A stretch of 64,000 nt of DNA from Elusimicrobiota bacterium. GTDB lineage: Bacteria > Elusimicrobiota > Elusimicrobia > Elusimicrobiales > UBA9959. Each line of letters starts with the position of its first letter. The stretch's first letter is position 1. The notes below the pieces were generated by a model. The model had not been told where the DNA came from. It saw only the letters and a program-made list of their open reading frames with translations, and ran no database searches. The position numbers and the translations under genes are program-made. The stretch is taken from assembly GCA_026388155.1 (NCBI GenBank), contig JAPLKI010000022.1, positions 310,001 to 374,000 of the forward strand, written 5' to 3'. Below, in pieces: positions 2 to 20,395 of the stretch.

Positions 2-3000
2 ACTAACGAGGAGTATGACCCCGCAGCCGATACCTGGAGTATAAAAGCTGTAATACCCGCACTCCGTGGTTTTGGTTCTGCGGAAATAATAGGCGGGAAG
101 CTGTATGTCGTGGGGGGAGATAGTGGAGCTGGTACCTTGCATACAAACGAGGAATACGACCCCGGCGTGGCGTCTTCGTTTACGGCGTTGACACCCAACA
201 TGTTGTACAGCTTCAAAGCCAAGGCCCGCAACGCGCTTGGCGTGGAGACCGGCGAAATTACGGTTTCAACATATACGCTTGCGGCTGTGGCCTTGCCGCA
301 TACTGGAACGCCGCTTTTCGCCTCAATTGCCACTTCAACCATAATGGTTAATTGGTCCTCCGGCTCGGTTACCGGCGGGTTCAACGGCTCAGGTGCGAGT
401 TATAAGATTCAGGTTTCATCGTTATCTGATTTTTCGGTAATTACATCCTCAAGTTTGGTATCCAGTATCCAGTATCCAGTATCCGGTCTTTCTGCAGATA
501 CTACTTATTTTTTCCGGGCGCGGGCTTATAACACGGCGGGCGTTACCGATTATTCCTGGCTGGAGCTGGGCTCAACCTCAACATTAGCCGAGCAAGTTAC
601 AGGCGTACAACTCACAAGTGTTATTCTTTCAAGCGCCACCATGATCTGGAACACTGTTACAGGCCAGGGCTACGCAGTTGAAGCCTCTACAGCCTCTGAT
701 TTCTCGGGTGTCATTCTTTCTTCTTTAACCCTTCAGCCTTCAGCCTTCAGCCTTTCCGTAGGCTCTCTCTTTCCCAACACCACCTACTTCTTCCATGCGG
801 GCGCTCTGAACTGGAATGGAACGGGGAACTTTGCCTCCGCAATAGCTTCATCCACACTGGCAAACCAGGTTACAGGGCAGCAATTACACCTTTTTATTTC
901 AAGCGTAGCGGTTAGCTGGGCAGCGTTGCCGTTAACGCCTTCAAGCGCTTCCTGCGAGGGATTCATTGTTGACGCCTCCACCGTCTCCGATTTCTCCGGT
1001 CTTGTTTTTTCTTCTTTCACCCTTCAGCCTTCGGCCTTCAGCCTTTCCGTTGCTAATCTTGACTCCGATGTGGAGTATTATTTCCGCGTCGGGTCGCTGG
1101 GCTGGGCAAATATCCCTAATTACACTTTCGCGGGAAGCACGGTTACTCCCGACATAATACCGCCGGGTATTTCTACCGGCGTTGCGGCATATCAGTCTGG
1201 CGCCGCCAATTCCGTTAAGCTGTTCTGGACCGCCCCCGGAAACAATGGATATCTGAAAAATCTGGCTATGGGGAGCGAATTCAGGATACAATGGAGTACA
1301 AATCCGCCGGAAACGGTAATATGGAGCACCGCAAACGTCCAGGCTATAATGCCTACGGATTTCGTTAATGCGGGGGTAACAGTATCAGCGCTTATTAACA
1401 ATCTTCCGGCGGAAAAGACCGCTTATTTCAGAGTGTGGGTCGCGGACGAAAAACAAAACTGGTCGGTACAGTCCGACACTGTAAGCGCGTCCGTCTCCCC
1501 GTTTGACTTTGCAATAGTGAACAGCGCCGGGAACGCGGGCAGGCACACTTCCCTGGCTTTGGACGGCCTGGGTAATACGCATATCAGCTACTACTCCCCT
1601 GGCGACACTTCTCTCAGATATGCAAAAGGGAACGGAACCTCCTGGGCCGTTCAAGCCGTGGACAACGCCGGGGATGCCGTCACCTCCCTCGCTTTGGACG
1701 GTTCGGGAAATCCTCATATAAGCTACTATGACGGCGCGAATAAAAAGCTTAAGTACGCAAGCTGGACGGGGACCTCATGGAGCATTGAGACTGTGGACAG
1801 CGCGGGGGATGTGGGCGAATATGCTTCCCTTGCTTTGGACGGAGTAGGCAACCCCCGGATAAGCTACTTTGACAACACCAATCAAGACCTCAAATACGCA
1901 AAATGGACAGGCGCTTCATGGAGTACCCAGACTGTGGACAGCGCTGGCGATGTGGGCGAATATACTTCCCTCGCATTGGATGGCGCCGGCAACCCCCGGA
2001 TAAGCTACTTTAACAACACCAATCAAGACCTCAAATACGCAAAATGGACGGGCGCTTCATGGGATGTTGAAACTGTGGACGGCGCGGGGGGGAATGTGGG
2101 CGAATATACTTCCCTCGCTTTGGACGGGGCGGGAAACCCTCATATCAGTTATTATGATGGATACAATGGCGGCCTGAAATATACAAAACGGACAGGCGCT
2201 TCATGGGACATCCAAACCGTGGACAACGCGGGGGCCGCGGGCACTTATACTTCTCTCGCTTTGGACGGAGCGGGCAATCCTTATATAAGCTACTCCGCTG
2301 CCGCCGCCGGCGACCTCAAATTTGCAAGATGGACCGGAACATCCTGGAGTACGCAAACAGTGGACAGCGAGGGGGATGTGGGTTCTTACACCTCCCTTGC
2401 TTTGGACGGCGCTGGCAGCCCTGGTATCAGCTACTATGGTGTGACCAACGGCGGCCTTAAAACCGCTAAATGGACAGGGGCGGAGTTTACCATACCCATG
2501 GGCGGCAATGCCCGGGGAAAAGTTCAGGCGCCTGACAATATGCATACGGGCCTTTTAGGGTCAACTTCAATACAATGGCTGTGGACCGACCACGCGGCCA
2601 ATGAGGCGGGCTTCAGGGTTTATTATTCAAGCTATGGGAGCGCCAATGACGATTTCACCCTTGCCGCGGGGACGGCCACTCTTTTAACGGATGCAGCGAA
2701 TTGGTTCCAGACCGGGCTGACGCCGAATACTTCCTATCAGGCCTATGCCGCGGCGGTAAATGACGGAGGAGCGGTAGTTTCAAGCGCGGCCGTAATTTAT
2801 ACCTGGGCCGCTCAGCCGCAAAATTCCCGTTTTGCCGGAGTTTATATATCCAGCGCCGCTTTGGCCTGGAACTTCGGCACAAATAATCCCTCCTGGACCA
2901 ATTACGAGGCGGAAGTTTCCTCCGAGCCCGGCTTTTCCGCGCCGGCGTCAAGTTACTCTGATACAGGCAATGCATTCCTGGCTGCCGGCCTGGTCTCCAA

Positions 3001-6000
3001 CGCCACATATTATTTACGCGTTAAAGCGGTCAGCGCGCAGGGCATATCCACCGCTTATACGGCCGCCGTTTCCACCATAACCAATCCCGCTGCTCCTGCC
3101 GCCGTAAGCGTTTCAAGCGTGACTTATTCAAGCTTTACCGTGAACTGGAACTCCAACGGGAATTCTCCCTATACCCGGTATATCGTACAGGCTGCGGCCG
3201 ACCCCGGATTTACCGTCAGTTTTATGTCGACCGTCACCTACCTGAACCAGTACGCTTTTGAAGGGCTTTCCGCCAATACGACCTATTTCACGCGGTTGAG
3301 GGCCAAAGGCCTGACAGGCGTAGAAACCGCTTTCGTCGAGTTCGGTTCAACTGTAACCACGACCTTATATCCGTCCTACGCGCCGCTAAGCTCAGTGACC
3401 GCGACTTCGGTCCGCGCTAACTGGGGCAAGAACAGCAACGCGGACGGAACCCTTTATCTGGCGCAGGTTTCAACGGATAACTTCGGCTCGGTGCTTGCCT
3501 CGTCCAAAACCGCGGACAACAACCTTGTTTTTTCTATGCTGACGCCCAATACCACACACTATTTCAGGGCGGCGTCAATTAACGCGGTGGGGTCTTTAAG
3601 CCTGTATATCAGCCTTGGCAGCACGATAACCTACGCCGCGCCGGCTTTGCAACATATCAACACCTTCCCGGCTGTCGGAGGGTTTACTGTCCTCTTCCAG
3701 TGGCTGGCGAACGGCAATCCCGCTTATACCGAATATTTCGCCCAGGTTTCCACCGCCGCTGATTTTTCGGGCGACGCGAAGTTCCCGGCGCGGTGGTTCA
3801 CCGGGGTTTCCACCCAGGCGGCGCATCTTACCCCGTTCACCGGATATTATTTCAGGGTAAAGGCGAGAAATATTTCGGGGACTGAAACCGGCTACTTAAA
3901 TTTAGGTTCCACCACCACATTCACGGACGTGGATATAAGCTCGCCTGTCATTACTAACAATCAGACCGGCGACAATACCTGGCGGGGTTCCAACAACGGC
4001 GTGTATGATGTGGATTTTGCCGATTACGGCGGGTCGTTCTTACAGCAGGTAGAGGTAAAGGCGATGACAGGCATGGCGCAGACCGGGACATTGGTCTCAG
4101 ACTGGGCCCCGGTGCTGACAAATATAAATTCCGCGGCGTATACCGCTGATTTCAGCCTTTCGCCCGCGGTTTTCGGCCTTCTTGCGCAAGGGACGAACTA
4201 TATCTCCGTGCGCGCGATCGACGGCGCCGGAAATCATACGGACCTGACCGACGCGTTCTATGTGATCAAAGACAGCGCGGCGCCGGTCATTGCGGATAAT
4301 CAGGCGGGCGATAATATTTGGCGGCAGACGGACCCCGGCCCGATATATAACGTGGATTTCGCGGACTCGGACTCCGGGCTTGAGGGCATAGAGTATAGCG
4401 CGAGCGACAACCCTAATTCCGCCGACGCCGATGTGCTCGACTGGACCCGGATAGCGGCGCTTAGCGCCGGACAGAATTCCTATACCGCGGACTGGGGCGT
4501 AAACTTCGCTGGGCTTTTAAACGTCGTCACGAATTATATTTCCGTGCGCGCGCGGGACAGGGCGGGAAATGAGGCGACGGCCGTTGACGCGTTCAAGGTG
4601 CTGAAGAATATCAACGGCCCCGAAGTGAAAATAACCGCGCCGGCCTCCGGCTACCGATCGGCGCTTGCGGCCGTCTCCGGAACCGCAGCGCAGGTGCTGG
4701 CTTATCCGATAACCGGCGTGGAACTTAAGATACTGGATAAATCCGCCATGCTCTACTGGAACGGTTTTGATTTCAGTTCCCCGGCGCCGCTTTGGTTTAA
4801 CGCTTCCGGGACCGCGGTCTGGAATTACGACACTTCCGCTGTCGCCTGGCTTAACGGAGTCTCTTATGAGGCGGTAGTCCGCTCAAGCGATACCACCGGC
4901 AATTATTCCGCGCCTTACGCCACCGCAACCTTCACCTTTGACGCGAGCGTTCCCTCCGCGGGCGTTACCTGGCCGCAAAACGGCGTGGCGGTAAGCAGTT
5001 TGAATTACATAACCGGCACGGCCCTTGACGCGCCGCCTAATTCCGGCATAGCTTCGGTCGCGCTCAGGTTCGGGAGAGCTTCCGACGGGAAATGGTGGAA
5101 CTTCTTCGGCAGGAACTGGTCGGACATGGCGGTTTCAACACTCGCCGCCGGCGGGGCGTCCTGGCATTATCAGCCCGACTGCTACCTGAAGAGTAATCTG
5201 GCTTCCAATGCCTCGTATTATCTTACCGCCGCCCCCGGAGACTGGGCGACGCCTTCAAATTCTCCTCTGTTCGGCGTTTACGGGACGACTTTCACATTCC
5301 TGGATGTTTCCTCTCCTTCGGCCGTAAGCGTTATTTCCGCTTCAAGCGGAACTTTGCCGGGCAGGATACAGCTCCAATGGGCCGCCGCCGGTGATGACGG
5401 GGACGACGGTATCATGCTGTACGGCCAGTTCGCCGTCCAATATTCAACCTGGGCGGGGGCGGAGTTCAGCACCCGGACCGCCCAGGTAATGGTTTCAACC
5501 ATGAATATAACCCCCGGTTCCACGCAGTACCTGACTATTTCAGGGCTGGTCCCTTCCGTTACTTATTACCTGACCCTCTGGACAATGGATGACGCGGAGC
5601 TTTGGTCGGACGCTTCCCCGGCCGTTTCTGAGATATCGGGCGCGTACCTGACGGATCAGATATCCGGCTACGTGAAAAATCCGGCCGCGCAGGGGATAAC
5701 CGGCGTGCTGGTGGAAGCCATCAACGGTTTCGGCTCAACCTCCGGGAACGCTTACACCATTGACGACGGGAGCGGCACTTTTGTCGTTTCAGGGCTTGCC
5801 GACGGCTTTTACCGCATCCAGGTCACCTGGACGGAGAACGGTTTTGTGAGTTCGGTTTCAAAAGACCTGATCCCGATGGGTTACGCGGACGCGGATTTTG
5901 AGCTTTCGGTCGCTTACCAGCTCGCGAGCGTTTCCGGGCAGGTGGCAGCGTACACGAAGGCTGAAGGCTTAAGGCTGAAGGCTAAAGGGAGGAGTAAGGT

Positions 6001-6511
6001 TGAAGGGGCGGGAGTTTACGTGGAACTTTATCAGGGGGGGAGAAAGATCGCTACAGCGGATGTGGGGGATGATGGAAGATTTAAAATAGCGAACCTTCTG
6101 CCCGGGAAATACACTGTGAAGATAGTCGGACTTCCTGAAGGCTCAAAAGAGGTCAAGGTCCAGTTGAAAGAGGGGCAGAATCTTGAAATAAGTCCTTTAG
6201 GGACGCTTCTAAAGAAGGATAAAGTCTATGCCTATCCGAATCCCGCCTCAAAGAGCGTTATTTTCCATATAGAATCGGATAGACCGGCGCTTAAAAAACA
6301 TATAATAGTTTTTGAAGTTGACGGCCGGGTTATCCGGGAGTTTGCCGATGCGGATGCGGGCTGGAATACATCGGGCGCCTACGTATACGAATTTACCTGG
6401 AATATAGACCCCAAAGTGGCCTCCGGCATTTACATCTATATGGTCAAAGTGAAAGACGAGGGAACCGGAGACACTGAAAAAACTATAAAGAAACTGGCTA
6501 TAGTAAGATAG
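2..6511 (+). CDS. Giant secreted kelch/FN3/beta-propeller surface protein (5' partial)
   Basis: The frame is open from base 2, so the gene starts left of the window; the ATG at 110 is internal. At least 2169 residues are visible. In order: the end of a kelch-like propeller (TNEEYDP occurs twice, residues 1-55); several fibronectin type III modules (about 60-490); seven copies of a 45-residue SLALDGxGNPxISYY repeat (about 500-830); more FN3 modules (to about 1310); two Ig-like repeats sharing GDNxWR; a further FN3; two carboxypeptidase-regulatory-like beta-sandwiches (about 1885-2070); and a C-terminal domain opening with YAYPNPAS. That last domain resembles the type A sorting domain of type IX secretion substrates. 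I infer an exported adhesin-like surface protein. No catalytic site is visible. Heptad DNA repeats occur inside the gene at 457-484, 732-752, 1023-1043 and 5956-5983. Confidence 0.85.
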   Translation, partial: TNEEYDPAADTWSIKAVIPALRGFGSAEIIGGKLYVVGGDSGAGTLHTNEEYDPGVASSFTALTPNMLYSFKAKARNALGVETGEITVSTYTLAAVALPHTGTPLFASIATSTIMVNWSSGSVTGGFNGSGASYKIQVSSLSDFSVITSSSLVSSIQYPVSGLSADTTYFFRARAYNTAGVTDYSWLELGSTSTLAEQVTGVQLTSVILSSATMIWNTVTGQGYAVEASTASDFSGVILSSLTLQPSAFSLSVGSLFPNTTYFFHAGALNWNGTGNFASAIASSTLANQVTGQQLHLFISSVAVSWAALPLTPSSASCEGFIVDASTVSDFSGLVFSSFTLQPSAFSLSVANLDSDVEYYFRVGSLGWANIPNYTFAGSTVTPDIIPPGISTGVAAYQSGAANSVKLFWTAPGNNGYLKNLAMGSEFRIQWSTNPPETVIWSTANVQAIMPTDFVNAGVTVSALINNLPAEKTAYFRVWVADEKQNWSVQSDTVSASVSPFDFAIVNSAGNAGRHTSLALDGLGNTHISYYSPGDTSLRYAKGNGTSWAVQAVDNAGDAVTSLALDGSGNPHISYYDGANKKLKYASWTGTSWSIETVDSAGDVGEYASLALDGVGNPRISYFDNTNQDLKYAKWTGASWSTQTVDSAGDVGEYTSLALDGAGNPRISYFNNTNQDLKYAKWTGASWDVETVDGAGGNVGEYTSLALDGAGNPHISYYDGYNGGLKYTKRTGASWDIQTVDNAGAAGTYTSLALDGAGNPYISYSAAAAGDLKFARWTGTSWSTQTVDSEGDVGSYTSLALDGAGSPGISYYGVTNGGLKTAKWTGAEFTIPMGGNARGKVQAPDNMHTGLLGSTSIQWLWTDHAANEAGFRVYYSSYGSANDDFTLAAGTATLLTDAANWFQTGLTPNTSYQAYAAAVNDGGAVVSSAAVIYTWAAQPQNSRFAGVYISSAALAWNFGTNNPSWTNYEAEVSSEPGFSAPASSYSDTGNAFLAAGLVSNATYYLRVKAVSAQGISTAYTAAVSTITNPAAPAAVSVSSVTYSSFTVNWNSNGNSPYTRYIVQAAADPGFTVSFMSTVTYLNQYAFEGLSANTTYFTRLRAKGLTGVETAFVEFGSTVTTTLYPSYAPLSSVTATSVRANWGKNSNADGTLYLAQVSTDNFGSVLASSKTADNNLVFSMLTPNTTHYFRAASINAVGSLSLYISLGSTITYAAPALQHINTFPAVGGFTVLFQWLANGNPAYTEYFAQVSTAADFSGDAKFPARWFTGVSTQAAHLTPFTGYYFRVKARNISGTETGYLNLGSTTTFTDVDISSPVITNNQTGDNTWRGSNNGVYDVDFADYGGSFLQQVEVKAMTGMAQTGTLVSDWAPVLTNINSAAYTADFSLSPAVFGLLAQGTNYISVRAIDGAGNHTDLTDAFYVIKDSAAPVIADNQAGDNIWRQTDPGPIYNVDFADSDSGLEGIEYSASDNPNSADADVLDWTRIAALSAGQNSYTADWGVNFAGLLNVVTNYISVRARDRAGNEATAVDAFKVLKNINGPEVKITAPASGYRSALAAVSGTAAQVLAYPITGVELKILDKSAMLYWNGFDFSSPAPLWFNASGTAVWNYDTSAVAWLNGVSYEAVVRSSDTTGNYSAPYATATFTFDASVPSAGVTWPQNGVAVSSLNYITGTALDAPPNSGIASVALRFGRASDGKWWNFFGRNWSDMAVSTLAAGGASWHYQPDCYLKSNLASNASYYLTAAPGDWATPSNSPLFGVYGTTFTFLDVSSPSAVSVISASSGTLPGRIQLQWAAAGDDGDDGIMLYGQFAVQYSTWAGAEFSTRTAQVMVSTMNITPGSTQYLTISGLVPSVTYYLTLWTMDDAELWSDASPAVSEISGAYLTDQISGYVKNPAAQGITGVLVEAINGFGSTSGNAYTIDDGSGTFVVSGLADGFYRIQVTWTENGFVSSVSKDLIPMGYADADFELSVAYQLASVSGQVAAYTKAEGLRLKAKGRSKVEGAGVYVELYQGGRKIATADVGDDGRFKIANLLPGKYTVKIVGLPEGSKEVKVQLKEGQNLEISPLGTLLKKDKVYAYPNPASKSVIFHIESDRPALKKHIIVFEVDGRVIREFADADAGWNTSGAYVYEFTWNIDPKVASGIYIYMVKVKDEGTGDTEKTIKKLAIVR

Positions 6512-9633: not shown

Positions 9634-9700
9634 TTTGGCGGGACCCCTGAAACCTTTACCCGATTTGTTCTATTGCTGTAATCTCGTCTTTGGAGGAGTT

Positions 9701-10657
9701 ATGAAACTTTACAGGGTAATGGCGCAGTTTAGCTGCTCTGTTTCGTTAATTCTATGCTGTTGCCCTTTCGGTTACGGGGCGCAGTCTTCCGCGGCGCAAT
9801 TCCTGAAACTCGGCTTCGGGGCCCGGGCGCTCGGGATGGGCGAAAGTTTCGTCGCGGTGGCGGACGATATTTCTTCGGTCTACTACAATCCCGCGGGGCT
9901 CGCGCTTAAAGGCGGAGCGAAAGAAAAAGAGTTCCTGTTCTCCCACGCCTGGCATATCCAGGATATGGGAATCTCCCAGCTGGGCTTTACAAAAAGGCCT
10001 TACGGCTTCGCTTTGACATATTTTTCGGCCGGGGAGATAGAAGGGATGGACAGCAATCAGACCCCGACCGGGAATTTCACCGCGGAGGACCTCGCTTTTT
10101 CCGCCGGCTACGGCTTTGACGTTAACGCTCTGCATTTGGGCGTTAATGGCCGCTATATCCACCAGCGTATAAAATCAAGCGCCGCCAGCGCCGTTTGCTC
10201 GGACTTCGGCGCGCTTTATCATTTTGACGGCACGCCTTATTGGGCAGGGGCGTCTGTTTCCAATTTGGGCACTAAGATAAAGTTCGTCGACGAGAGTTTC
10301 CCGCTGCCGCTTATCTACAGGCTGGGTGCCGCAGCCGATTTCAAGGGGCAGAAACTGCTTTTAGCCCTTGAGGCCGATTTTCCGAACGACTCAGGCGCGG
10401 CAATAAGGGCGGGGGCTGAATACCGGGGTGTGGACAATGTGGCCTTTCGCTTAGGCTATAAAACCGGATCTTCCTCGGACAGGGACGCGATACTGGGCCG
10501 TGAACTTGGCAGCTCCTCCTCGGGCGTTTCCAGCCTTTACGGGTTTTACGCCGGGGTGGGCTTTAATTACAGAAGCTTCGCGCTGGATTACGCGTTCCTG
10601 CCTTATGGGGAGCTTGGCAATTCCCACAGATTTTCAGTGGGTGTTAAATTCCAGTGA
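9701..10657 (+). CDS. PorV/PorQ-family outer-membrane protein
   Basis: The start at 9701 is preceded by GGAGG and yields a 318-residue protein with a signal peptide (a CCC cluster then GYGAQSS). The segment GFGARALGMGESFVAVADD followed by VYYNPAGLA is the hallmark of the PorV/PorQ (FadL-like) barrel family. The C-terminus ends VGVKFQ, a plausible barrel-insertion signal. In Bacteroidota, PorV shuttles type IX secretion substrates at the outer membrane. Here the neighbour at 2-6511 has a matching kind of C-terminal domain. The substrate link is inferred, since no other type IX component is visible. Confidence 0.8.
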   Translation: MKLYRVMAQFSCSVSLILCCCPFGYGAQSSAAQFLKLGFGARALGMGESFVAVADDISSVYYNPAGLALKGGAKEKEFLFSHAWHIQDMGISQLGFTKRPYGFALTYFSAGEIEGMDSNQTPTGNFTAEDLAFSAGYGFDVNALHLGVNGRYIHQRIKSSAASAVCSDFGALYHFDGTPYWAGASVSNLGTKIKFVDESFPLPLIYRLGAAADFKGQKLLLALEADFPNDSGAAIRAGAEYRGVDNVAFRLGYKTGSSSDRDAILGRELGSSSSGVSSLYGFYAGVGFNYRSFALDYAFLPYGELGNSHRFSVGVKFQ

Positions 10658-10786: not shown

Positions 10787-12694
10787 ATGTATAAAATATT
10801 ATTCGCCGGGATTTTGCTTCTGCTCCCCGGCAGCCGCGTTTTCGCGGACGACTCGGCGGCTCTTCAGTTCACCGTGGCCGCGCCCGACCCAGTAATGGCG
10901 GGCGACGAGGTCAAGCTTCAGACGCTTGTCGTTAACACCGGCCCCTCCGCCTGGGTTAAAGGGACTTATTACTGGGCGGGCGAAATATACACCATTGAGG
11001 GGGAAAATCACAAATTTCTGGCCCAAACGGAAACTGTTTCCCCGCAGGAAGATGTCGCCCCCGGCACGGCTCACGGCGCACAGCTTTCTTTCACGGTGCC
11101 GGAGAACACGCGCGGAAGCCTGCTTTACCGCGTTTTCCTCATAAAAGACGGCAAGCGTATCGTGGAAACGGACTATAAAAGCTTTCAGGTTATCGAAAAA
11201 GAATTCCACCCTCCCCCGCCCCAGGACTTCAAGATAGGCGGAGACGTTACTTTCAGTTATAAAAATTCAAGCGCTGACGAGTGGAAGAAACACCAGGGCA
11301 TCACCGCCGCCAACATCGTGGGCAAGGTGAAGAAATCTTCTTTCCTTTTCAACACCTATATAGTGCACACCTACGCACGCCCCATTAACCCCCTCATAGT
11401 GCTTCTTAATTATTACGCCCCCTGGGGAACTTTAAGCGTGGGGGATATTTCCCCGTCGCTCACGCCGCTTTCCATGGATGGGCAGGGCATGAGAGGCGTA
11501 TCGCTGGACCAGACCAGGAATAAACTCTCCTGGACCGCGCTTGCGGGCAGGATAGTGGCGCCGGACTCCCCAAAAGCTTTCAATACCGGCAGATTTGCCA
11601 GATATACCGGCGGGCTCAAAGCCTCTTATCAGGCCCGGCCCAATCTCAAGATTTCCCTTAATTCGGTACTGAGCAGCGATGATCAATATTCCATTTCCAT
11701 AGATACGAGCGCAAGCACCCTGAAACCGCAGCAAAGCGTTGTTTACGGTACGCTTGTGGAATGGAATTTGCGCAAACAACTTACCTTTGCGAGCGAGTAT
11801 CAGCTGAGTTCCCATAAGCCGGATCTCAGGTCAAACCTCAGGGCCGAGAGCGGAGGCGCCTGGAAGCAGGAGCTTAAATACAGGGGGGGGGTAGCCACCG
11901 CCCGCGCTTCGCTTGCAAGGGTCGACCCCAAATTCGCCTCGTTCGCAAGCCCCTCCGTCATATCGGACCGCGAAGTGCGCGAGATAGAACTGGGGCTTTA
12001 TCCAGCGGACTGGACCACTTTTTCGATGGGCTTCAATAACTACGCGGACAACCTCAAAAACGATCCCGCCAAAACCACAACGAACCAGACCCAGACCAGT
12101 TTTTCAAATACCCTGAAAGTGTTCGGCCATACCATGATCAATAGTTCCTATCTGGTCAACGCGGCCAAGGGGAAACCGTCGACGGTGCAGAACAACCAGA
12201 CCACCACGCTTAATTTTTCCGTGCTCCAGCCGGTTAACGCTCACACGCTGAATCTGGGGCTGCAGACAAGCGGTTTTAAGGACAAAACGCATATCTCCCA
12301 TGATCTGGACACGACCCTTGTTTCCTTAAGCGGCGCTTTTAAGCTGAGCGACAGGCTTTCCATGTCTACGGGATTTGTCAACTCGAACACCAAGGATAAA
12401 TTAGACTTCACCACCTCTAAAAACAACACCATAACGGGAAATTTTACCTATACTATGCCCCGCCGCGCCATGGCCGTTCAGCTTTGGACCACCATCTCTT
12501 CCAATAAAAACAATTCGCCCGCGCTGCCCGGCGATTCCCACTCGCTTTCCGTGAATCTGGAAACCGTGTGGCTGAAGAGCCGGAGTTCCAAATTCACGTT
12601 CGGCGTCGGCGGTACTTCAAAAAAAGACAAGGTAAATCCCGCCAACGGCTCAAACGCGATCAACATACTCACCAGATATAATTATTCGTTCTAA
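10787..12694 (+). CDS. Outer-membrane beta-barrel protein with N-terminal Ig-like domain
   Basis: The 635-residue product has a signal peptide (MYKILFAGILLLLPGSRVFA). A CARDB/Ig-like domain follows (about 20-135; AAPDPVMAGDEVKLQTLVVN). About 480 residues of alternating polar/hydrophobic strands come next and end in TRYNYSF, an aromatic terminus typical of BAM-inserted barrels. I do not recognise a specific family. The start has a TATAAT only nine bases upstream and no ribosome-binding site, so the transcript may be leaderless. It closes the + strand surface locus. A channel or anchor for the exported proteins upstream is an inference. Confidence 0.7.
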   Translation: MYKILFAGILLLLPGSRVFADDSAALQFTVAAPDPVMAGDEVKLQTLVVNTGPSAWVKGTYYWAGEIYTIEGENHKFLAQTETVSPQEDVAPGTAHGAQLSFTVPENTRGSLLYRVFLIKDGKRIVETDYKSFQVIEKEFHPPPPQDFKIGGDVTFSYKNSSADEWKKHQGITAANIVGKVKKSSFLFNTYIVHTYARPINPLIVLLNYYAPWGTLSVGDISPSLTPLSMDGQGMRGVSLDQTRNKLSWTALAGRIVAPDSPKAFNTGRFARYTGGLKASYQARPNLKISLNSVLSSDDQYSISIDTSASTLKPQQSVVYGTLVEWNLRKQLTFASEYQLSSHKPDLRSNLRAESGGAWKQELKYRGGVATARASLARVDPKFASFASPSVISDREVREIELGLYPADWTTFSMGFNNYADNLKNDPAKTTTNQTQTSFSNTLKVFGHTMINSSYLVNAAKGKPSTVQNNQTTTLNFSVLQPVNAHTLNLGLQTSGFKDKTHISHDLDTTLVSLSGAFKLSDRLSMSTGFVNSNTKDKLDFTTSKNNTITGNFTYTMPRRAMAVQLWTTISSNKNNSPALPGDSHSLSVNLETVWLKSRSSKFTFGVGGTSKKDKVNPANGSNAINILTRYNYSF

Positions 12695-13063
12695 GGAAGA
12701 GATTACGGCGATAAAATAAAACGATTACAGGGATAAGATAAGAGCCGGGTATTGCATCCTTTCCCCGAATATTATTTCCGTGATCGGTCCGCTATTGTGA
12801 TCAGACTAGCCTGAAAAATTCAATTGAATTTTTCCCTTCGCGGTGCTCAGGTGCGCTTCGCGCGGCATACACCCTCGCAAATTCTGCGCGCAATGCGCTT
12901 GATTTGCGACCCGCAAAGCGGGGGATCCTGGCCGTCTGATGGCCATAGGCCTTTGTTACGGCACCTGCGAAAGCATTGCATATTTTTGTTCCTTATGTTT
13001 TCAAATGAGAATAACCTTGAACTGCAGGATTCAGGCTAGCGGGAATTTTCCAACAGACACGGA
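12695..13063. other. Structured intergenic region bounded by 10-bp inverted repeats
   Basis: No convincing gene lies here. A GATTACGGCGAT repeat word occupies the first 50 bases. CTAGCCTGAA at 12806-12815 is answered by TTCAGGCTAG at 13030-13039, enclosing 214 bases. A perfect 22-bp palindrome (12813-12834) opens the interior. Internal stems include CCCGCAAAGCGGG, TGGCC with GGCCA, and CGCAAAT with ATTTGCG. It could be a MITE-like element or a structured RNA. Flanking genes converge on it. Confidence 0.5.
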
Positions 13064-13984
13064 TCAACCCCGCTTTTTTCGTTTTAACGGTTTTTTTGTT
13101 TTGGTTTGTCCGGGGGGGGAGGCTTTATCAAGAGCTTCCAGATAATCCTTTAATTGCGCGTCGCCGGGCGAGAGGTCGTAGGCTTTCTGCCAGGCCGCCC
13201 TGGCCTTTGGATAATATTTAAGCTGAATGTAAGCCGAACCCAGCCGTTTGAGGGAGGTTATATCTTCCGGTTCAAGTCTGAGGGCGCTTTCAAGCTCTTT
13301 TACGGCCAGATAAAATTTTGAGTCGTAAATATAGTGCAGGGCTACATCTTTTTTATTCTCCAGAACGCTTACATTCGGCGGTTTGGTATCGTTTATTTTT
13401 AATTGGGGGGTTTCTTCCTCAAGCGCGGAAATCATGCGGTGGAACCTGCCTTCTGTCGGCGAAAGTTCAAGGGCGTAGCGCAGGGCGTCGTAAGCGAAAA
13501 GTGCGTCCTCTTTCTCGCTCAGCCAGGCGGAAAGGCCGTCCGAGGCGATATTCCATGGTTTTGTGGATGCAGGCTTTATAGGCGTTATGGCCGATACTAT
13601 CCGCAAACGGCCGTGAAGTTTCTGATAGCCCTGGTTGGTGGGGTCGGCGACGAGCATATTTTCCGTTTTTGCCAGAGCGTCGGCGTAGCGGCCTTTCCTG
13701 ATAAGCGCGTAACAGACGTCTTTCATGCCCACGGAAGATTTCGCCATCTTTTGCCGGGCTTCTTCTATCATATTGCGGGCCGTCACCTGCTTGGGGTCGG
13801 CTTTGATCACCAGGTTCCAGTAATCCATGGCTTTCTGGTAATTCCCGGCCATATAAAATCCGAAAGCTTTGTCATAATATTCGTGCATCTGCACGGCCTG
13901 CGCGTCCGGCGTGCCGGAAGGCGCTTCGGCTGCGATTGCGGAAGCCAACGGCAAAAATATAGAAATGAGAATAAGCTGTCTCAT
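13064..13984 (-). CDS. Periplasmic TPR protein of the motor operon
   Basis: A 306-residue protein with a signal peptide (MRQLILISIFLPLASAIA). TPR-like helices lie around 35-75 (AFGFYMAGNYQKAMDYWNL), 88-120 and 210-290 (AVKELESALRLEPEDITSL, KARAAWQKAYDLSPGDAQL). The start codon overlaps the stop of the upstream MotB-like gene as ATGA, so the two are translationally coupled. It is the last gene of the operon. Secreted TPR proteins often scaffold envelope complexes, so a periplasmic partner of the motor stators is the likely role, by inference. The C-terminus is a lysine/arginine-rich tail. Confidence 0.75.
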   Translation of the reverse strand: MRQLILISIFLPLASAIAAEAPSGTPDAQAVQMHEYYDKAFGFYMAGNYQKAMDYWNLVIKADPKQVTARNMIEEARQKMAKSSVGMKDVCYALIRKGRYADALAKTENMLVADPTNQGYQKLHGRLRIVSAITPIKPASTKPWNIASDGLSAWLSEKEDALFAYDALRYALELSPTEGRFHRMISALEEETPQLKINDTKPPNVSVLENKKDVALHYIYDSKFYLAVKELESALRLEPEDITSLKRLGSAYIQLKYYPKARAAWQKAYDLSPGDAQLKDYLEALDKASPPGQTKTKKPLKRKKRG

Positions 13985-14628
13985 GTCTTTTTTTCTCCGT
14001 TTTCCTGCCGTATTATGATTATTTCTATCCTGCGGTTTTTGGCGCGGCCGCTCTCGGTATCATTGGGAGCCAGCGGTCTGAATTCCCCGTAGCCGAAGGC
14101 TGAAAGATACTGCGGCGGCACCCCGTTTTTTATCAGGTGATTTATCACTGAAAAAGAGCGCATCAGCGAAAGCTGCCGGTTTGACGCGAATTTTTTGCCG
14201 AGCATTCTGGCCGCATCGGTGTGTCCTTCCACGGTCACCTGGTTTTCCATTTTTATCAGGCTTTTGGCCACCTGGCTGAGCGCGGTTTTGGCCGACTCTT
14301 TAAGCTGGTCGGAGCCGGAGTCGAACAGCACGGGCGAGGAGAAGGTAAGCTTTATGCGCGAAGTGGTAACTTCCACGCCCAAATTCCCCGCCTGTATCTG
14401 TTTTTTCAGGTCTTCCTCCACCTGCCTGGTGGCTTTCATTTCTTCAACCTTTTTGGCCGCACTCTTTACGCCAAGCTCTTTTTGCAGCCCCGCTATGGCG
14501 GCCTCGTAGTCGGACTTTTTCATATTAAACGAAAAACCGTAAAGGGAGAGAAATAAAATCACCATGACCGTCATCAGGTCCGCGAAGGGCACCATCCACA
14601 GCTGGGTATTGTTTTTTTTAACGCTCAT
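13981..14628 (-). CDS. MotB/OmpA-type stator subunit, second copy
   Basis: A 215-residue protein with one N-terminal membrane helix carrying the proton-channel Asp of MotB (Asp17 in PFADLMTVMVILF). A coiled linker follows (about 36-80), then an OmpA-like peptidoglycan-binding domain with GHTDAARMLGKKF and a C-terminal NRRIEIII strand. Its start overlaps the stop of the preceding MotB-like gene (ATGA). It differs clearly from that paralogue, so the two could form a heterodimeric B subunit. Confidence in the family is high. Assignment to a non-flagellar motor rests on the operon. Confidence 0.85.
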   Translation of the reverse strand: MSVKKNNTQLWMVPFADLMTVMVILFLSLYGFSFNMKKSDYEAAIAGLQKELGVKSAAKKVEEMKATRQVEEDLKKQIQAGNLGVEVTTSRIKLTFSSPVLFDSGSDQLKESAKTALSQVAKSLIKMENQVTVEGHTDAARMLGKKFASNRQLSLMRSFSVINHLIKNGVPPQYLSAFGYGEFRPLAPNDTESGRAKNRRIEIIIIRQENGEKKT

Positions 14629-15299
14629 TTTCTTGAAACTATTATTTCTATGCGCCTGTTCAGCGCTCTGCCTTTCGGCGTGTCGTTTAAGGCCACGGGG
14701 CGGTACTCCCCGTAAGCCGCGCAGATCATTCTGGTGTTGGAAATAGCGAATTTAGCCGCCAGAAAATCAGCCACAGCGGTGGCCCGCGCGGAGGAAAGTT
14801 CCCAGTTGGTTGAGTAATCGCCTGAGCGTATGGGCACATTGTCGGTGTGGCCCTCGATTATTATGTCGTTCGGGAGACGCGTCAGAACTTTAGCGAGCGC
14901 CCCGAGTATCCCGGCGGAACTTGTATTAAGCCTGGCTTTGCCGGAAGCGAAAAGAACCGGCGCCGCAATGTTTATTCTTATCTGTTTCTCCGTCATCTGC
15001 ACTTCGGCGGCATTCTTCAGTCCGGCTTTTGCCAGTTCCTCTTCCAGGTTTTTGGCCATATCCTGTTCCCTGTACTTTTGCACAACATTTTCGGCCTTCC
15101 TCGCTTTCTGGGCTTCGGCATGTTCCTTGTCGAAGCCGTTCATGAAAATGGTTTTTGCCTCGCTCTCCGGCTGTATATTGAAAACGTACAGTATCAGGAA
15201 GAAGAGCATGAGGTTGGTCATGATATCGGAAAGCACGATCAGCCAAAGGGGATTCTCAACGGTTTTTTGGCCGGTATATCTGCTTAGAAAGGATTTCAT
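14625..15299 (-). CDS. MotB/OmpA-type stator subunit, first copy
   Basis: A 224-residue protein with a single membrane helix containing Asp25 (IVLSDIMTNLMLFFLILYVF), the position of the essential MotB proton-binding Asp. An EAQKARKAE-type helical linker and an OmpA-like domain (about 120-224; GHTDNVPIRSGDYSTNWELS, NRRIEIIVSRK) follow. The start overlaps the MotA stop as TAATG, giving direct translational coupling. A conventional stator needs one MotB. Two different ones in a row are unusual and suggest an asymmetric stator or two alternative stators. Confidence 0.85.
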   Translation of the reverse strand: MKSFLSRYTGQKTVENPLWLIVLSDIMTNLMLFFLILYVFNIQPESEAKTIFMNGFDKEHAEAQKARKAENVVQKYREQDMAKNLEEELAKAGLKNAAEVQMTEKQIRINIAAPVLFASGKARLNTSSAGILGALAKVLTRLPNDIIIEGHTDNVPIRSGDYSTNWELSSARATAVADFLAAKFAISNTRMICAAYGEYRPVALNDTPKGRALNRRIEIIVSRK

Positions 15300-16072
15300 T
15301 ATTTTTTCGTTCTGGCCTTGCGCCTGAGTGCCAGCGACAGGAAGCCCTCAAGTTTTTTTGAGACCAGCCAGGGCACGTCTCCGTCATAAATAGAGAGCAC
15401 TCCCTTCGCTATCATCTCGCGGCTGAGAATATCCTCTTCGGAATAAAAGCCGAGTTTGCTCGCTATGGGCAGAAAAATGAAATTGGCGGAGAAAATGCCG
15501 TAGAAAGAGGCGGTCATGGCTATAGCCATGGAAGAGCCCATCATCTGCGGGTTTGAAATGTTCCGGAGCACCTGTACCACGCCGATGAGCGTGCCGAGAA
15601 GTCCGAAAATGGGGGCGAAAGTTCCGGCGGAGGTGAAAATATTGGTCTGCTGCTGGTGACGCAGGCGGGTGGTGTTTATGTCGTGCTCCATCCTTTCGGA
15701 CAGGATGTGAGCGTCCACCCCGTCGATCATCATCTGGCAGGCGTCAGTCAGGAACGGATGGGGGGATTTCGAAAGTTCTCCAGCCAAAGATCCAATTCCC
15801 TTTTTTTTGCTGACCTCCGCGAAATAAACCATGGCCCGTATCAGGTCTACGATGGGCGGGCGCTTCGGCGGGAAAAGAACAAGCCGGAAGGAGGAGGTTA
15901 CCCACTTGAGCGCCGCCCAGGGATAGGAAATCATGATCGAACCAAGCGTGCCCCCGAAGATGAGCACTATGGCTTCCCAGTTAAGCAGAAACTTTACCAT
16001 GCCGCCGGCTGAAAGCACAAATACTATAACCCCTATGCCGATCGTGGCGCCGAGTACTGTCATTAGGTCCAT
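15299..16072 (-). CDS. MotA-type proton-channel stator protein
   Basis: A 257-residue membrane protein with four predicted helices: two at the N-terminus (about 5-50) and two around 150-205 (TFAPIFGLLGTLIGVVQVL, MTASFYGIFSANFIFLPIAS). A large cytoplasmic loop lies between them, containing HPFLTDACQMMIDGVD. This topology and the long loop match MotA rather than the shorter ExbB/TolQ. In flagella the loop pushes on FliG. Here the upstream gene encodes a FliG-like domain fused to a FliF-like domain, which supports a real rotor-stator pair. The MotB-like gene overlaps its stop codon by one base. Confidence 0.85.
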   Translation of the reverse strand: MDLMTVLGATIGIGVIVFVLSAGGMVKFLLNWEAIVLIFGGTLGSIMISYPWAALKWVTSSFRLVLFPPKRPPIVDLIRAMVYFAEVSKKKGIGSLAGELSKSPHPFLTDACQMMIDGVDAHILSERMEHDINTTRLRHQQQTNIFTSAGTFAPIFGLLGTLIGVVQVLRNISNPQMMGSSMAIAMTASFYGIFSANFIFLPIASKLGFYSEEDILSREMIAKGVLSIYDGDVPWLVSKKLEGFLSLALRRKARTKK

Positions 16073-16103
16073 TGTTTTTTACCTCCGGTTAGGGCCTGAA
16101 AAA

Positions 16104-17588
16104 TCAGGGTTTTGGGACGGTTGGCTGGGCCGGCCGGGCAGACTGCTGGTTAACTGGCGGCTTTGTCGCGGCCTGTGCGGGGATGGCGGCCGGTTTTACA
16201 GCCGGGTGTGAAAGCGTATCGGCATGCGGGCGGGGAGCGGAATTCTCCGCGGTCATCAGGCCTTCCTTTATCATCTGTCGCAGCGCCTCCACCACCTTGG
16301 CCCGTTCAGCTTTGTAGGCCGCGGCAGGCATGACACGGGTGAGTTCCAGTTCCTGCCGGAAGCGTTCCTGCATACCCGCGCTGAGTTTTGTCAGGAAGCT
16401 TTCCGCATAGTTTGAACCTTTTAAAGCCGCCGCCATAACGCGCATCGGCACGCGGCGCGCCAGCATTTGGGCGTGTACGTTTTCAAGACGCGCCACATCC
16501 GCCAGCCTTACTACGGAGGATTTCACCTTTATTGAAAACAGGGGATTAAGCCTGGCAAAATCCGTTATGGCTTTATCCTGCACGGTCTCGTCAAGAGTTT
16601 CCATTATGCCGAGTGTCTTATCCTCTCCTCCCACCACGTAGTCAAGCGCCGCCCTGATCTCCGCCTCAAGGGCGCGTATGCTTTGCTCGGGCATGAGCGT
16701 TACTTTCGGCAGGGCGGCCAAAGCCTGCATGCTTCTGGGATACAGCGCCTCGACCAGTTTTACCGAGACATCTTTCGGGGCGTAATTCAGCACTATCGTA
16801 AGGTCCTGCGTTGTTCTTGTTCTCATTAAAAATATCAGGTTTGAAATGTTATCGGCGGACAGAAATCCGAAAAGAGGCGTTTTCCCGCCCTGGGCGGACT
16901 CCTGCGCGGCCGCAGATTGCGTTTCCATAACTTCCGCCTCGCGCTTTTCTTCGTAACGCTGTCCCTCTGCTTGTGAGGTCTGGGCGTTTTGGGCGGAAAA
17001 AGCCGCGACAAAAGCTTTCGCCGAGCGCGACAGCGGAAAGAGGAACACGAAAATAGCCAGCAGCGTCAGTACCGCAACCAGCATGATCCACGTCACGTTC
17101 CAGAGATTCGGGGGCACAAGCAGATCGCTTGCTGTGAAAGGGCGCGCTTTCCTGAAATTCATCTTCTCGATGGTTATCAGGTTTTCCCGCTCCGGCGGCA
17201 GACCGAGCAGCCCCGCCGTAAGTTTTCGGGCCAATTTTGTATCCTCTTCGGAGATGGTTTTGTCAAGTATAAGGCTGGCGGAAAGTTTCTTTAACATGGT
17301 CAGCGTGCCTGACAGAGAAAGTTCGCCCATCTTTTTCTCTTTTGGAATACCCGGCATGATTTCAACCGGCGCTTTTTTCTCCTGTTCCTGCAGTTCGGCC
17401 GAGATTATAACTATTATGTCCTCCGTGCCCAGCGCTTCGGACAAGACCATCTTCAGCCTTTTTTCGAGTGAGTTCTCAAGAGCAAGTTTGGCTTCAAGCG
17501 CGTTGCGGCTCTCCGCCTGCGCCCGGACGGATGAAACCGCGCAGAAAGTAAGCGACAGCGATAGTAAAAAAAACAATGATCTTTTCAT
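16104..17588 (-). CDS. FliF-FliG fusion, single-chain rotor protein
   Basis: A 494-residue protein. Residues 1-23 are a signal or anchor helix. Residues 35-145 match the ring-building motif next to the FliF C-terminal helix (LEKRLKMVLSEALG, then LSASLILDKTISEED and a LITIEKMNF end). A membrane helix lies at about 165-186. Residues 235-455 resemble the middle and C-terminal domains of FliG: ISNLIFLMRTRTTQDLTIVL, VVRLADVARLENV, VMAAALKGSNYAESFLTKLS and MQERFRQELE. A Pro/Ala-rich tail ends the chain. FliF's other ring motifs and FliG's N-terminal domain are missing, so this looks like a minimal MS/C ring in one polypeptide. It leads the MotA-MotB-MotB-TPR operon. No flagellar hook, export or filament gene is in the window. 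Confidence 0.8.
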   Translation of the reverse strand: MKRSLFFLLSLSLTFCAVSSVRAQAESRNALEAKLALENSLEKRLKMVLSEALGTEDIIVIISAELQEQEKKAPVEIMPGIPKEKKMGELSLSGTLTMLKKLSASLILDKTISEEDTKLARKLTAGLLGLPPERENLITIEKMNFRKARPFTASDLLVPPNLWNVTWIMLVAVLTLLAIFVFLFPLSRSAKAFVAAFSAQNAQTSQAEGQRYEEKREAEVMETQSAAAQESAQGGKTPLFGFLSADNISNLIFLMRTRTTQDLTIVLNYAPKDVSVKLVEALYPRSMQALAALPKVTLMPEQSIRALEAEIRAALDYVVGGEDKTLGIMETLDETVQDKAITDFARLNPLFSIKVKSSVVRLADVARLENVHAQMLARRVPMRVMAAALKGSNYAESFLTKLSAGMQERFRQELELTRVMPAAAYKAERAKVVEALRQMIKEGLMTAENSAPRPHADTLSHPAVKPAAIPAQAATKPPVNQQSARPAQPTVPKP

Positions 17589-17656: not shown

Positions 17657-17882
17657 TTAAAAAATTCGGCCGGAATTTGAGAGATTCCAACGATAGAGAG
17701 CTGATTGCGGAGATGGAAAAGGGAACAATATGGGGATAATCCATGCTCGTTTATTTTGTTGCCATTCTAATCTATTCATAAAATCCGCAATCCGCGGGCT
17801 TGGAAATCGCCTTGACTATCGGAGCGGTCATTTAATAGGATTGTTTCAATTGAAAAATAAAACGGTGTTACGGAGGCTTATG

Positions 17883-19148
17883 ATGCGTAATAGGTTATTT
17901 GGGGTTTTGGCTTGTCTCGGCCTGGTTCCATGCGCGTTCGCGCTTGACGGTAATATTACCTTTGATCAGCCCGGCAGCGTTTCAAAAATGGTCAGCCAGC
18001 TTAAAGCGGCCAATCCGGGCGCGGAAATAATCCCGCTGCCGCAGGGTATGGCAAAAGCGGATAAAGAATGGACCGTAATGGTCTATGTCAACGCCAAAAA
18101 CAATCTTGAGTCATACGGCCTCAAGGATGTTAACGAGATGGAAATGGTGGGCTCCGACGCCAAGGTAAACATTGTGGCGGAACTGGGCCGCATTAATGGC
18201 TATTCCACTTCCGACGGCGACTGGAAAACCACGCGGCGCTATCTGGTCCGGAAAGACAATGATATTTCAATAATCTCTTCCCCCGTAGTGATGGAAATAG
18301 CCAAGACCGACATGGGCGACTGGAATCACCTGGTGGAATTTACCAAGTGGGCCATGACCGCTTATCCCGCGCGGCATTACGCGCTGGTGGTCTGGAACCA
18401 CGGTTCCGGCTGGAACAAGGACCTTGCCTTTGAATCCGATAAAGGCATTTCCTACGACGATGAGAGCGGCAACCACATAACCACTCCCCAGCTCAGACAG
18501 GCCATGGAACAGATAGGTAAAATTGATATTCTTGGGATGGACGCCTGCCTGATGCAGATGGTTGAGGTAGGCTATGAAGTAAAGAACTACGCAGATTATA
18601 TAGTCGGCTCCGAAGAAACCGAGCCCGGCGACGGCTACACCTATAACACCTGGCTGGAGCCGCTGGAGGCAAAGCCTGCTATGCCTGCGGCGGAACTTGC
18701 CACGGCTATGGTTAATTCCTACGGCGACCATTACCAGAGTGTAAATCAGCAGGCCACGCAGTCGGCCATTAAAACCGCGGCGTTCGATAAGTTCACCGCG
18801 CTTATAAACGACTGGGCCGCCGAGGTAATGAAAGCCGGCGAGCTTGCCAGCGCCAAGAATGCCAGGACCAACGCCCAGGCGTTCTATTATTCGTCAAACA
18901 AGGATGTCTATCACTTTGTTAAACTTGTGGACGACGCGGCTGTAAGCCAGGCGGTTTCGGCCAAGGGCAAAACCCTGCTTGACTTCATAAAGAGCGATGT
19001 CGTAATAAGCAACCGTGCGGTGGGCGCGAAGTATGCGAACGCCACAGGGCTTGCCATCTACATCCCCACCTCTTACACCTCTTCTTATGACGCTCTGAAA
19101 TGGGCGGCCGACTCGAATTGGGATGATTTCATAAAGTGGATAAAATAA
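17883..19148 (+). CDS. Clostripain-family (C11) secreted cysteine peptidase
   Basis: The start is one of two adjacent ATGs after GGAGG (17872-17876); 17883 has the better spacing. The 421-residue product has a signal peptide (MRNRLFGVLACLGLVPCAFA). The peptidase core begins at EWTVMVYVNAKNNLE. The catalytic His is in VVWNHGSGW (about 180) and the catalytic Cys in DILGMDACLMQM (about 223), both as in clostripain-like C11 peptidases, which cleave after basic residues. VGSEETEPGDGY follows as expected. A strong terminator follows the stop, so it is probably monocistronic. It may process exported proteins, which is an inference. Confidence 0.88.
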   Translation: MRNRLFGVLACLGLVPCAFALDGNITFDQPGSVSKMVSQLKAANPGAEIIPLPQGMAKADKEWTVMVYVNAKNNLESYGLKDVNEMEMVGSDAKVNIVAELGRINGYSTSDGDWKTTRRYLVRKDNDISIISSPVVMEIAKTDMGDWNHLVEFTKWAMTAYPARHYALVVWNHGSGWNKDLAFESDKGISYDDESGNHITTPQLRQAMEQIGKIDILGMDACLMQMVEVGYEVKNYADYIVGSEETEPGDGYTYNTWLEPLEAKPAMPAAELATAMVNSYGDHYQSVNQQATQSAIKTAAFDKFTALINDWAAEVMKAGELASAKNARTNAQAFYYSSNKDVYHFVKLVDDAAVSQAVSAKGKTLLDFIKSDVVISNRAVGAKYANATGLAIYIPTSYTSSYDALKWAADSNWDDFIKWIK

Positions 19149-19345: not shown

Positions 19346-20395
19346 ATGGTTAAAACTGCGTATATAAAGGGAATATCGCGGGCCGCCGTTCTTTACGGCA
19401 TCCTGTGGTGCTGCCCGCTCCCTGCCGAAGCCGGGGCCTCCGTCGGGACCACTTCGGCAAATTTTCTGAAAGTCCCGGTCGCCGCCATTCCCACCAGCCT
19501 TGGGGAGGCCTACACCGCCATGGTGGGGCCCGATTCCATACTTTATAATCCCGCTGGTTTGGGATTGCTCAGTTACAGCTCTTTTTCCGGTTCCCATAAC
19601 CTGTATATTAACGGCGTTACCCAGGAGTATGTGGCGGCCGCTTATCATGCGACTTACGGAACTATCGGGTTTGGCTTTTCGTCTCTTTCCAGCGGAAAGA
19701 TCGACGCTTACGATGAGAATGATATGCTCATCGGCAAAACTTCTACGTCCCACCAGCTTTGGGTATTATCTTATTCCCAGTCCTGGCCGCATTTTAACGA
19801 GGATATAGGCATGCTTGACCCCATGCTTATCAGCCCCGACTGGATCAGGGTGGAACCTGTAAGAAAATACCGCCCCAAAGCCTACAGGCTTTCATTGGGG
19901 GCAAGCGTCCGGCAGATCAGTGAAACTCTGGACCGCTATAACGCTAAAGCTTACGCTTGCGATTTTGGCGTTCTGCTGGTTCTGCCCCATCATTTCCACC
20001 TGGGCGCTTCGGCCTTAAACTTCGGGGGAAAACAGAAATTCGTTCAGGCAAGCTCAACTTTGCCGAGCGAACTGCGGGCCGGTCTTGCAAAAGACTTTCA
20101 TTCCAAAAACGACACAATAGTTTTCACCCTGGCTTCGGATCTGATAAAGTATTCCGACAGCGCCGGCTTAAGCGCCACAGGGCTTGAAGTGAATATCCTC
20201 CAAATGTTTCAAATGCGCCTTGGCTATAAGACGCAAAAAGATTCCGGTTCCCGCCTGAGCGCCGGGATGGGTATGAATTTTGACCGTCTTTCCGATAAGA
20301 CGAGCATCCTGCGCGGGGTCAGACTTGATTATTCCTACATGGACTACGGCGGCCTTGGCGCTACCAGCCGTATAGGTGTGCAGTTTATCTGGTAA
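19346..20395 (+). CDS. PorV/PorQ-family outer-membrane protein, second copy
   Basis: A 349-residue protein with a signal peptide ending near PAEAGA. The family hallmark is present: TTSANFLKVPVAAIPTSLGE, then AMVGPDSILYNPAGLGLL. The C-terminus ends in IGVQFIW, an aromatic barrel terminus. It is diverged from the PorV-like protein at 9701 and has its own promoter. No clear Shine-Dalgarno precedes the ATG. Outer-membrane transport or secretion-shuttle roles are both possible; sequence alone does not decide. Confidence 0.78.
   Translation: MVKTAYIKGISRAAVLYGILWCCPLPAEAGASVGTTSANFLKVPVAAIPTSLGEAYTAMVGPDSILYNPAGLGLLSYSSFSGSHNLYINGVTQEYVAAAYHATYGTIGFGFSSLSSGKIDAYDENDMLIGKTSTSHQLWVLSYSQSWPHFNEDIGMLDPMLISPDWIRVEPVRKYRPKAYRLSLGASVRQISETLDRYNAKAYACDFGVLLVLPHHFHLGASALNFGGKQKFVQASSTLPSELRAGLAKDFHSKNDTIVFTLASDLIKYSDSAGLSATGLEVNILQMFQMRLGYKTQKDSGSRLSAGMGMNFDRLSDKTSILRGVRLDYSYMDYGGLGATSRIGVQFIW

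Follow-up and report, generated by a model that had tools for sequence, protein, structure and literature searches.

Probable non-flagellar use of a flagellar-type rotor and stator in Elusimicrobiota

FliG together with flagellar-type MotA and MotB proteins is usually taken as a mark of flagella. Positions 13064-17588 of the window, the 64-kb stretch of Elusimicrobiota DNA that was analysed, encode such proteins on the minus strand and raise the question of what a rotor and a stator could do in a cell without a flagellum. The sequence-only reading of the locus had listed five minus-strand open reading frames, and all of them are present: a 494-residue FliF-FliG fusion, the putative rotor subunit (16104..17588); a 257-residue MotA stator subunit (15299..16072); MotB1 with 224 residues (14625..15299); MotB2 with 215 residues, which belongs to a second, distinct class of MotB (13981..14628); and a 306-residue exported periplasmic TPR protein (13064..13984). 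The tight junctions described for four of the genes are also real. The MotA and MotB1 genes meet in a TAATG with one base in common, 4-nucleotide ATGA overlaps are present at the MotB1/MotB2 and MotB2/TPR boundaries, and a gap of 31 nucleotides separates the fusion gene from that of MotA. The order fusion-MotA-MotB-MotB-TPR is preserved in 31 of 31 relatives of the window-type operon, counting only those with at least 3.7 kb of downstream DNA. Therefore, the operon is not a chance grouping. Its relatives in named genomes come from Elusimicrobia/Elusimicrobiota, except for a few labelled merely as "bacterium".

The operon is flanked by genes for a clostripain-family protease (17730-19148) and a 635-residue exported protein (10787-12694), and genes of similar size and orientation lie beside the operon in relatives from the same family. 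The gap after the operon contains a 234-base-pair stretch (12806-13039) between imperfect 23-nucleotide inverted repeats (74%), which is possibly a small mobile element.

The fusion protein had been proposed to join a FliF-like ring motif through a membrane helix to the middle and C-terminal domains of FliG, an architecture that profile searches, hhalign, AlphaFold2 and Foldseek all recover. It comprises a signal or anchor segment (residues 3-23), an RBM3-type motif (approximately 30-146), a trans-membrane segment (approximately 161-191) and the FliG middle and C-terminal domains (240-451). Pfam searches with the single sequence detect FliG_C (E=7.6e-10), and the FliF match (E=0.043) remains under the cut-off; a paralogous fusion from the same genome (L008) passes the cut-offs for both FliF_C (9.6e-8) and FliG_M (2.4e-13). 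A profile built from 35 window-type fusion sequences (A6) matches solved FliG in the PDB at E=2e-36 across residues 240-451, the middle and C domains. When profiles are aligned to each other by hhalign, the window type matches true FliG with 99.3% probability (E=2e-20) and true FliF with 94.7% (E=6e-8), and sister-type fusions match true FliF with 96.2% (E=2.7e-9), both FliF alignments being limited to RBM3. One of the three FliF ring motifs is thus aligned, as the sequence-only reading had it, and its type is RBM3. A lack of profile similarity to FliF and FliG, which would have refuted that reading, is not what is found.

The AlphaFold2 model of the fusion has a mean pLDDT of 79.6 and contains a helix-strand-strand-helix-strand arrangement at residues 30-143, a long trans-membrane helix at 159-207 and FliG-like helices at 245-441. 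The low overall pTM (0.43) reflects domains whose mutual positions are not fixed. Foldseek matches the model to FliG middle and C domains (E=5e-7, probability 1.00), to FliG_C of the MotAB-FliG complex 8ucs (TM 0.76 at 1.7 Å) and to FliF RBM3 entries (probability 1.00, E 0.02-0.06). No match to FliG_N is obtained by Pfam in the window fusion, and only marginal ones in its paralogues. On the torque face of the window-type FliG, Lys264 is kept and an acidic residue is present at 289, and Arg281 is replaced by Gly. In L008 and L009, two of the four fusions of the genome, neither position 264 nor position 289 of FliG carries a charged residue, which weakens the case for a motor.

As judged from sequence and predicted fold, MotA is a flagellar-type protein with the cytoplasmic torque loop, not one of ExbB/TolQ type. 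It belongs to the Pfam family MotA_ExbB (2.5e-23), the window type matches MotA/PomA structures with E-values down to 3e-66, and the predicted fold has TM scores of 0.84-0.90 to MotA/PomA and about 0.5 to ExbB/TolQ. The flagellar MotA fold and the profile rule out a motor of the ExbBD/TolQR type. Both channel prolines are present in the window protein; among 68 homologues, 66 have proline at position 173 and all 68 at position 222 (E. coli numbers). The Arg90 position carries Lys in the window MotA and Lys or Arg in 67 of the 68 homologues, among which Glu98 is mostly lost. Arg281 of FliG and Glu98 of MotA form a contact pair in E. coli; this pair is not conserved here, which counts against the reading of the system as a motor.

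The two accompanying proteins are MotBs with channel Asp residues, as had been claimed. In MotB1 and MotB2 alike, Pfam finds the plug (MotB_plug) and the OmpA-like peptidoglycan-binding domain, and the trans-membrane segment of each carries the channel Asp. Window-type operons contain two MotB classes, and the Asp has been lost from MotB1 in three loci, L112 (11364-12038, Cys), L113 (2605-3276, Gly) and L129 (11594-12268, Cys), and from MotB2 in one, L134 (6738-7382, Ala). Among the loci examined, it is never lost from both MotBs of one operon. The one-sided loss agrees with a mixed pair of MotBs, only one of which may need its Asp, an inference from residue patterns.

The host genome (G000; 3.36 Mb in 25 contigs) is 96.9% complete, and neither the type III export gate proteins FlhA and FliP nor the C-ring proteins FliM and FliN were found in it; the rod/hook family Flg_bb_rod gave only a sub-threshold match with an internal stop. 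The statement that export, rod and hook genes are lacking therefore holds genome-wide for these families, and the full flagellar regulon elsewhere in the genome that could have overturned a non-flagellar role did not appear in the searches for export, rod/hook and FliM/FliN genes. Without FliM/FliN there is no known switch, which counts against the motor reading. A survey of the phylum (341 genomes) finds FliG_C in 151 and FlhA in five (G110, G117, G166, G168 and G187). G166, G110 and G117 have a separate FliG of 320-355 residues inside a flagellar operon, and G110 contains both a fusion and a true FliG. In a tree of FliG sequences, 49 fusions are grouped apart from four true FliGs with support of 95/95; several branches of the tree are long, and its inner order is unsure. 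Because the FliF and FliG profile matches are clear, the genome shows no flagellar regulon and FlhA is so much rarer than FliG_C across the phylum, a non-flagellar rotor, as originally suggested, is the best reading.

The label "stand-alone" given to this motor is only partly correct: the genome encodes three further paralogous fusions, of 651 (L006), 510 (L008) and 486 residues (L009), near MotA, MotB and PorV-TPR genes. All four fusions of the genome are close to MotA and MotB genes. In some sister loci, MotA is missing near PorV-TPR and the fusion, and this also counts against the motor reading. The loci L095, L096, L100 and L105 contain PorV-TPR and fusion genes followed by genes of approximately 1600 and 900-1090 residues, with no MotA nearby. 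Of the four motor loci in the genome, two have genes that by eye resemble sensor histidine kinases between or beside the motor genes (L008:5998-6939; L009:3301-5430 and 10930-12354), and these genes perhaps control the motors.

The fifth gene of the operon suggests a connection to the outer membrane. Its product was described as an exported TPR protein; Pfam detects the repeats, and hhalign aligns it to the C-terminal TPR half of PorV-TPR proteins over 191 columns (99.9%, E=6e-33). The TPR protein is probably the output adaptor. At sister loci, the gene immediately upstream of the fusion encodes PorV-TPR in 15 of 16 cases by automatic count. PorV-TPR proteins (E<1e-50) occur in 109 genomes of the phylum, all 109 of which have FliG_C, and at least 97 of 106 PorV-TPR places have a FliG_C match no more than 5 kb away; these counts are not independent, since the species share ancestry. 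For the operon of the window itself, the putative PorV link depends on the homology of the TPR protein. A PorV/PorQ-family outer-membrane barrel is encoded on the plus strand at 9635..10657 (175.7 bits against a cut-off of 90), which establishes a carrier of the PorV family in the host genome, and is a possible output partner. A second PorV/PorQ-family protein (19346..20395, plus strand) is a conserved neighbour across the same genome family. Membership in the machine has not been shown for either barrel. The 2133-residue fibronectin-III surface protein encoded at 110..6511 on the plus strand, with its start near the window edge, ends in a Type 9 secretion system (T9SS) type A sorting domain that scores above the cut-off; it is possibly a cargo, a suggestion based on context only. 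The large surface proteins at 110-6511 of the window and at L006 13-6420 are not homologous beyond a weak resemblance of their C-terminal ends.

In Bacteroidota, PorV is a carrier thought to be pulled off the SprA translocon by a motor powered by the proton-motive force (PMC10994853). The host genome encodes a 1840-residue SprA/Sov-like protein (L092:7703-13225, contig C25) that scores 144.5 bits over three stretches, under the family cut-off of 200, and SprA matches occur in 292 of the 341 genomes. A sequence search of the PDB gave no match for SprA, and the identification rests on the NCBIfam profile. Together, such matches suggest a Type 9-like translocon outside Bacteroidota. SprA is spread more widely than the fusion, and the presence of SprA therefore does not depend on it. 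GldM was matched in none of 336 genomes, in a search that lacked any positive control.

The explanation that we consider probable is that a flagellar-type rotor and stator are used without a flagellum and that their force is transmitted through the TPR protein to PorV barrels. Homologies, predicted folds, gene order, phylum-wide distribution, the lack of the flagellar genes sought, and the homology and co-occurrence that connect TPR and PorV are observed; the workings that follow are inferred without experiment. The fusion would form an inner-membrane ring whose RBM3-type motif lies in the periplasm and is joined by a single membrane helix to a cytoplasmic ring of FliG middle and C domains. 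MotA, MotB1 and MotB2, probably as a 5:1:1 unit containing the inferred mixed MotB pair, would be anchored to peptidoglycan, pass ions, with proton use an inference, and push the FliG ring into rotation. The force of the ring would reach the periplasmic TPR protein and, through a presumed contact, the PorV-type barrels of the outer membrane. The output would most likely be the movement or release of surface-anchored proteins, the cargo likewise being inferred. We are evenly divided on whether these systems constitute a separate class of envelope machine, a FliG-ring rotary motor apart from flagella, with several versions per cell throughout the phylum, that turns TPR/PorV in the periplasm and so moves or exports surface proteins. 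Such a machine might have recruited the flagellar rotor-stator pair independently, or might preserve an early stage of it.

Two proposals are more specific forms of this explanation. GldLM moves SprB in Flavobacterium, and on that model the rotor would be a gliding motor that drives PorV-anchored adhesins along the cell surface. The motor genes adjoin PorV-type barrels and genes for large surface proteins, GldM was not detected (with the reservation about controls given above), and several motors per genome would suit several surface tracks; one motor serves both secretion and gliding in Bacteroidota (PMC10994853). However, the open papers searched contain no report of gliding for these uncultured bacteria and no track protein has been identified, so that gliding is a serious candidate which falls somewhat short of what we would expect to be true. 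Alternatively, the motor may take the place of GldLM and pull PorV-bound cargo off a SprA-like translocon. Extraction of PorV cargo requires energy (PMC10994853), and the SprA-like protein of the host and its spread through the phylum, the sorting domain in the window and the PorV-TPR genes directly upstream of sister fusions are all in favor of it. Nevertheless, SprA is about twice as common as FliG_C (292 versus 151 genomes) and does not need this motor, because it occurs in many genomes without any fusion. The score of the SprA match is also below its family cut-off, and four motors per genome exceed the need of one secretion system. Export is for these reasons the more doubtful proposal, and we lean, with low confidence, towards surface movement of the gliding type.

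The other two readings deny either the rotation or the independence from flagella. The FliG-like domain might not turn at all and instead serve as a fixed clamp by which MotAB channels are gated or positioned, for instance in Tol-Pal-like envelope upkeep or in ion uptake. The loss of the Arg281/Glu98 pair, the two paralogous fusions without charged torque residues and the absence of the switch proteins would all be accounted for in this way. Against it, many families have retained the middle and C domains of FliG as well as the ring motif and a MotA of flagellar type complete with the cytoplasmic loop, and the genome separately contains two further MotA_ExbB-family genes that by score are likely TolQ/ExbB; we consider a clamp improbable. 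That FliF, FliG, MotA and MotB are flagellar proteins, and that FlhA is present in five genomes of the phylum, three of them with a separate FliG in flagellar operons, could indicate that the operon is a leftover or a part of an ordinary flagellum. However, the host genome lacks FlhA, FliP, rod and FliM/FliN genes, the fusions branch apart from true FliGs and coexist with one in G110, and multiple copies in conserved operons are unlike decay. A flagellar locus or relic, to which we give almost no credence, is rejected on the basis of the missing export, rod and C-ring genes together with the tree.

The engine of the proposed non-flagellar motor is itself the flagellar one and already known: FliF RBM3, FliG middle and C domains, the cytoplasmic loop of MotA, and the Asp, plug and peptidoglycan domain of MotB are homologous. 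Unlike the flagellar motor, the system has no RBM1 or RBM2, no clear FliG_N, and no FliM/FliN, export gate, rod or hook, and it includes two MotBs and TPR and PorV partners. The AglRQS system of Myxococcus likewise combines one MotA/TolQ-type with two MotB/TolR-type proteins in the absence of a flagellum, and it is not known to contain a FliG/FliF rotor. It differs in that the MotA described here is of flagellar type; the role of AglRQS is that of the Myxococcus gliding motor (PMC13104615). The GldLM/PorV/SprA machinery of Type 9 secretion and gliding shares an ion-driven inner-membrane motor tied to PorV-family barrels, and SprA-like and sorting-domain proteins occur in this genome (PMC10994853). 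By contrast with GldLM, the motor here consists of MotAB and a FliG rotor, and GldM was not detected by the uncontrolled search. A 2025 survey of MotAB proteins describes a flagellar ion transporter class (FIT) as flagellar (PMC12505986). The MotA fold, the plug and the OmpA-like domain are common to that class and to the proteins described here, which occur without flagella in a phylum that the text of the survey does not name.

A natural FliF-FliG fusion in bacteria without flagella has been reported from Chlamydiaceae (PMC4768692). The sequence-only reading overlooked this precedent, a fusion without MotAB. The SctJ-like ring motifs are partly retained in it, the SpoIIIAG-like motif (RBM3) is missing, and of FliG it contains only FliG_M; FlhA is retained, the fusion is discussed as a possible part of an injectisome, and no MotAB is described (PMC4768692). 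The Elusimicrobiota fusion has kept RBM3, the opposite of the chlamydial one. The open papers searched on FliG, gliding, SprA or PorV in Elusimicrobiota, and on FliG outside flagella, contain no description of the present system; preprints and most subscription papers were outside the scope. No earlier case of MotAB combined with a FliG rotor in a non-flagellar setting was found in the open papers, and phyla other than Elusimicrobiota were not surveyed.

In bacteria without genes for flagellar export, rod and switch, FliG and flagellar-type MotAB have been retained in several copies and inherited together with PorV barrels. Matches to fliG or motAB alone are therefore no safe basis for calling a genome flagellated. 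If the Elusimicrobiota machine rotates, it would be a second use of the rotor-stator pair and might power Type 9-like export or gliding in bacteria other than Bacteroidota. It would also be a minimal natural motor, composed of one fused rotor protein, one MotA and two MotBs, each part of which can be tested.
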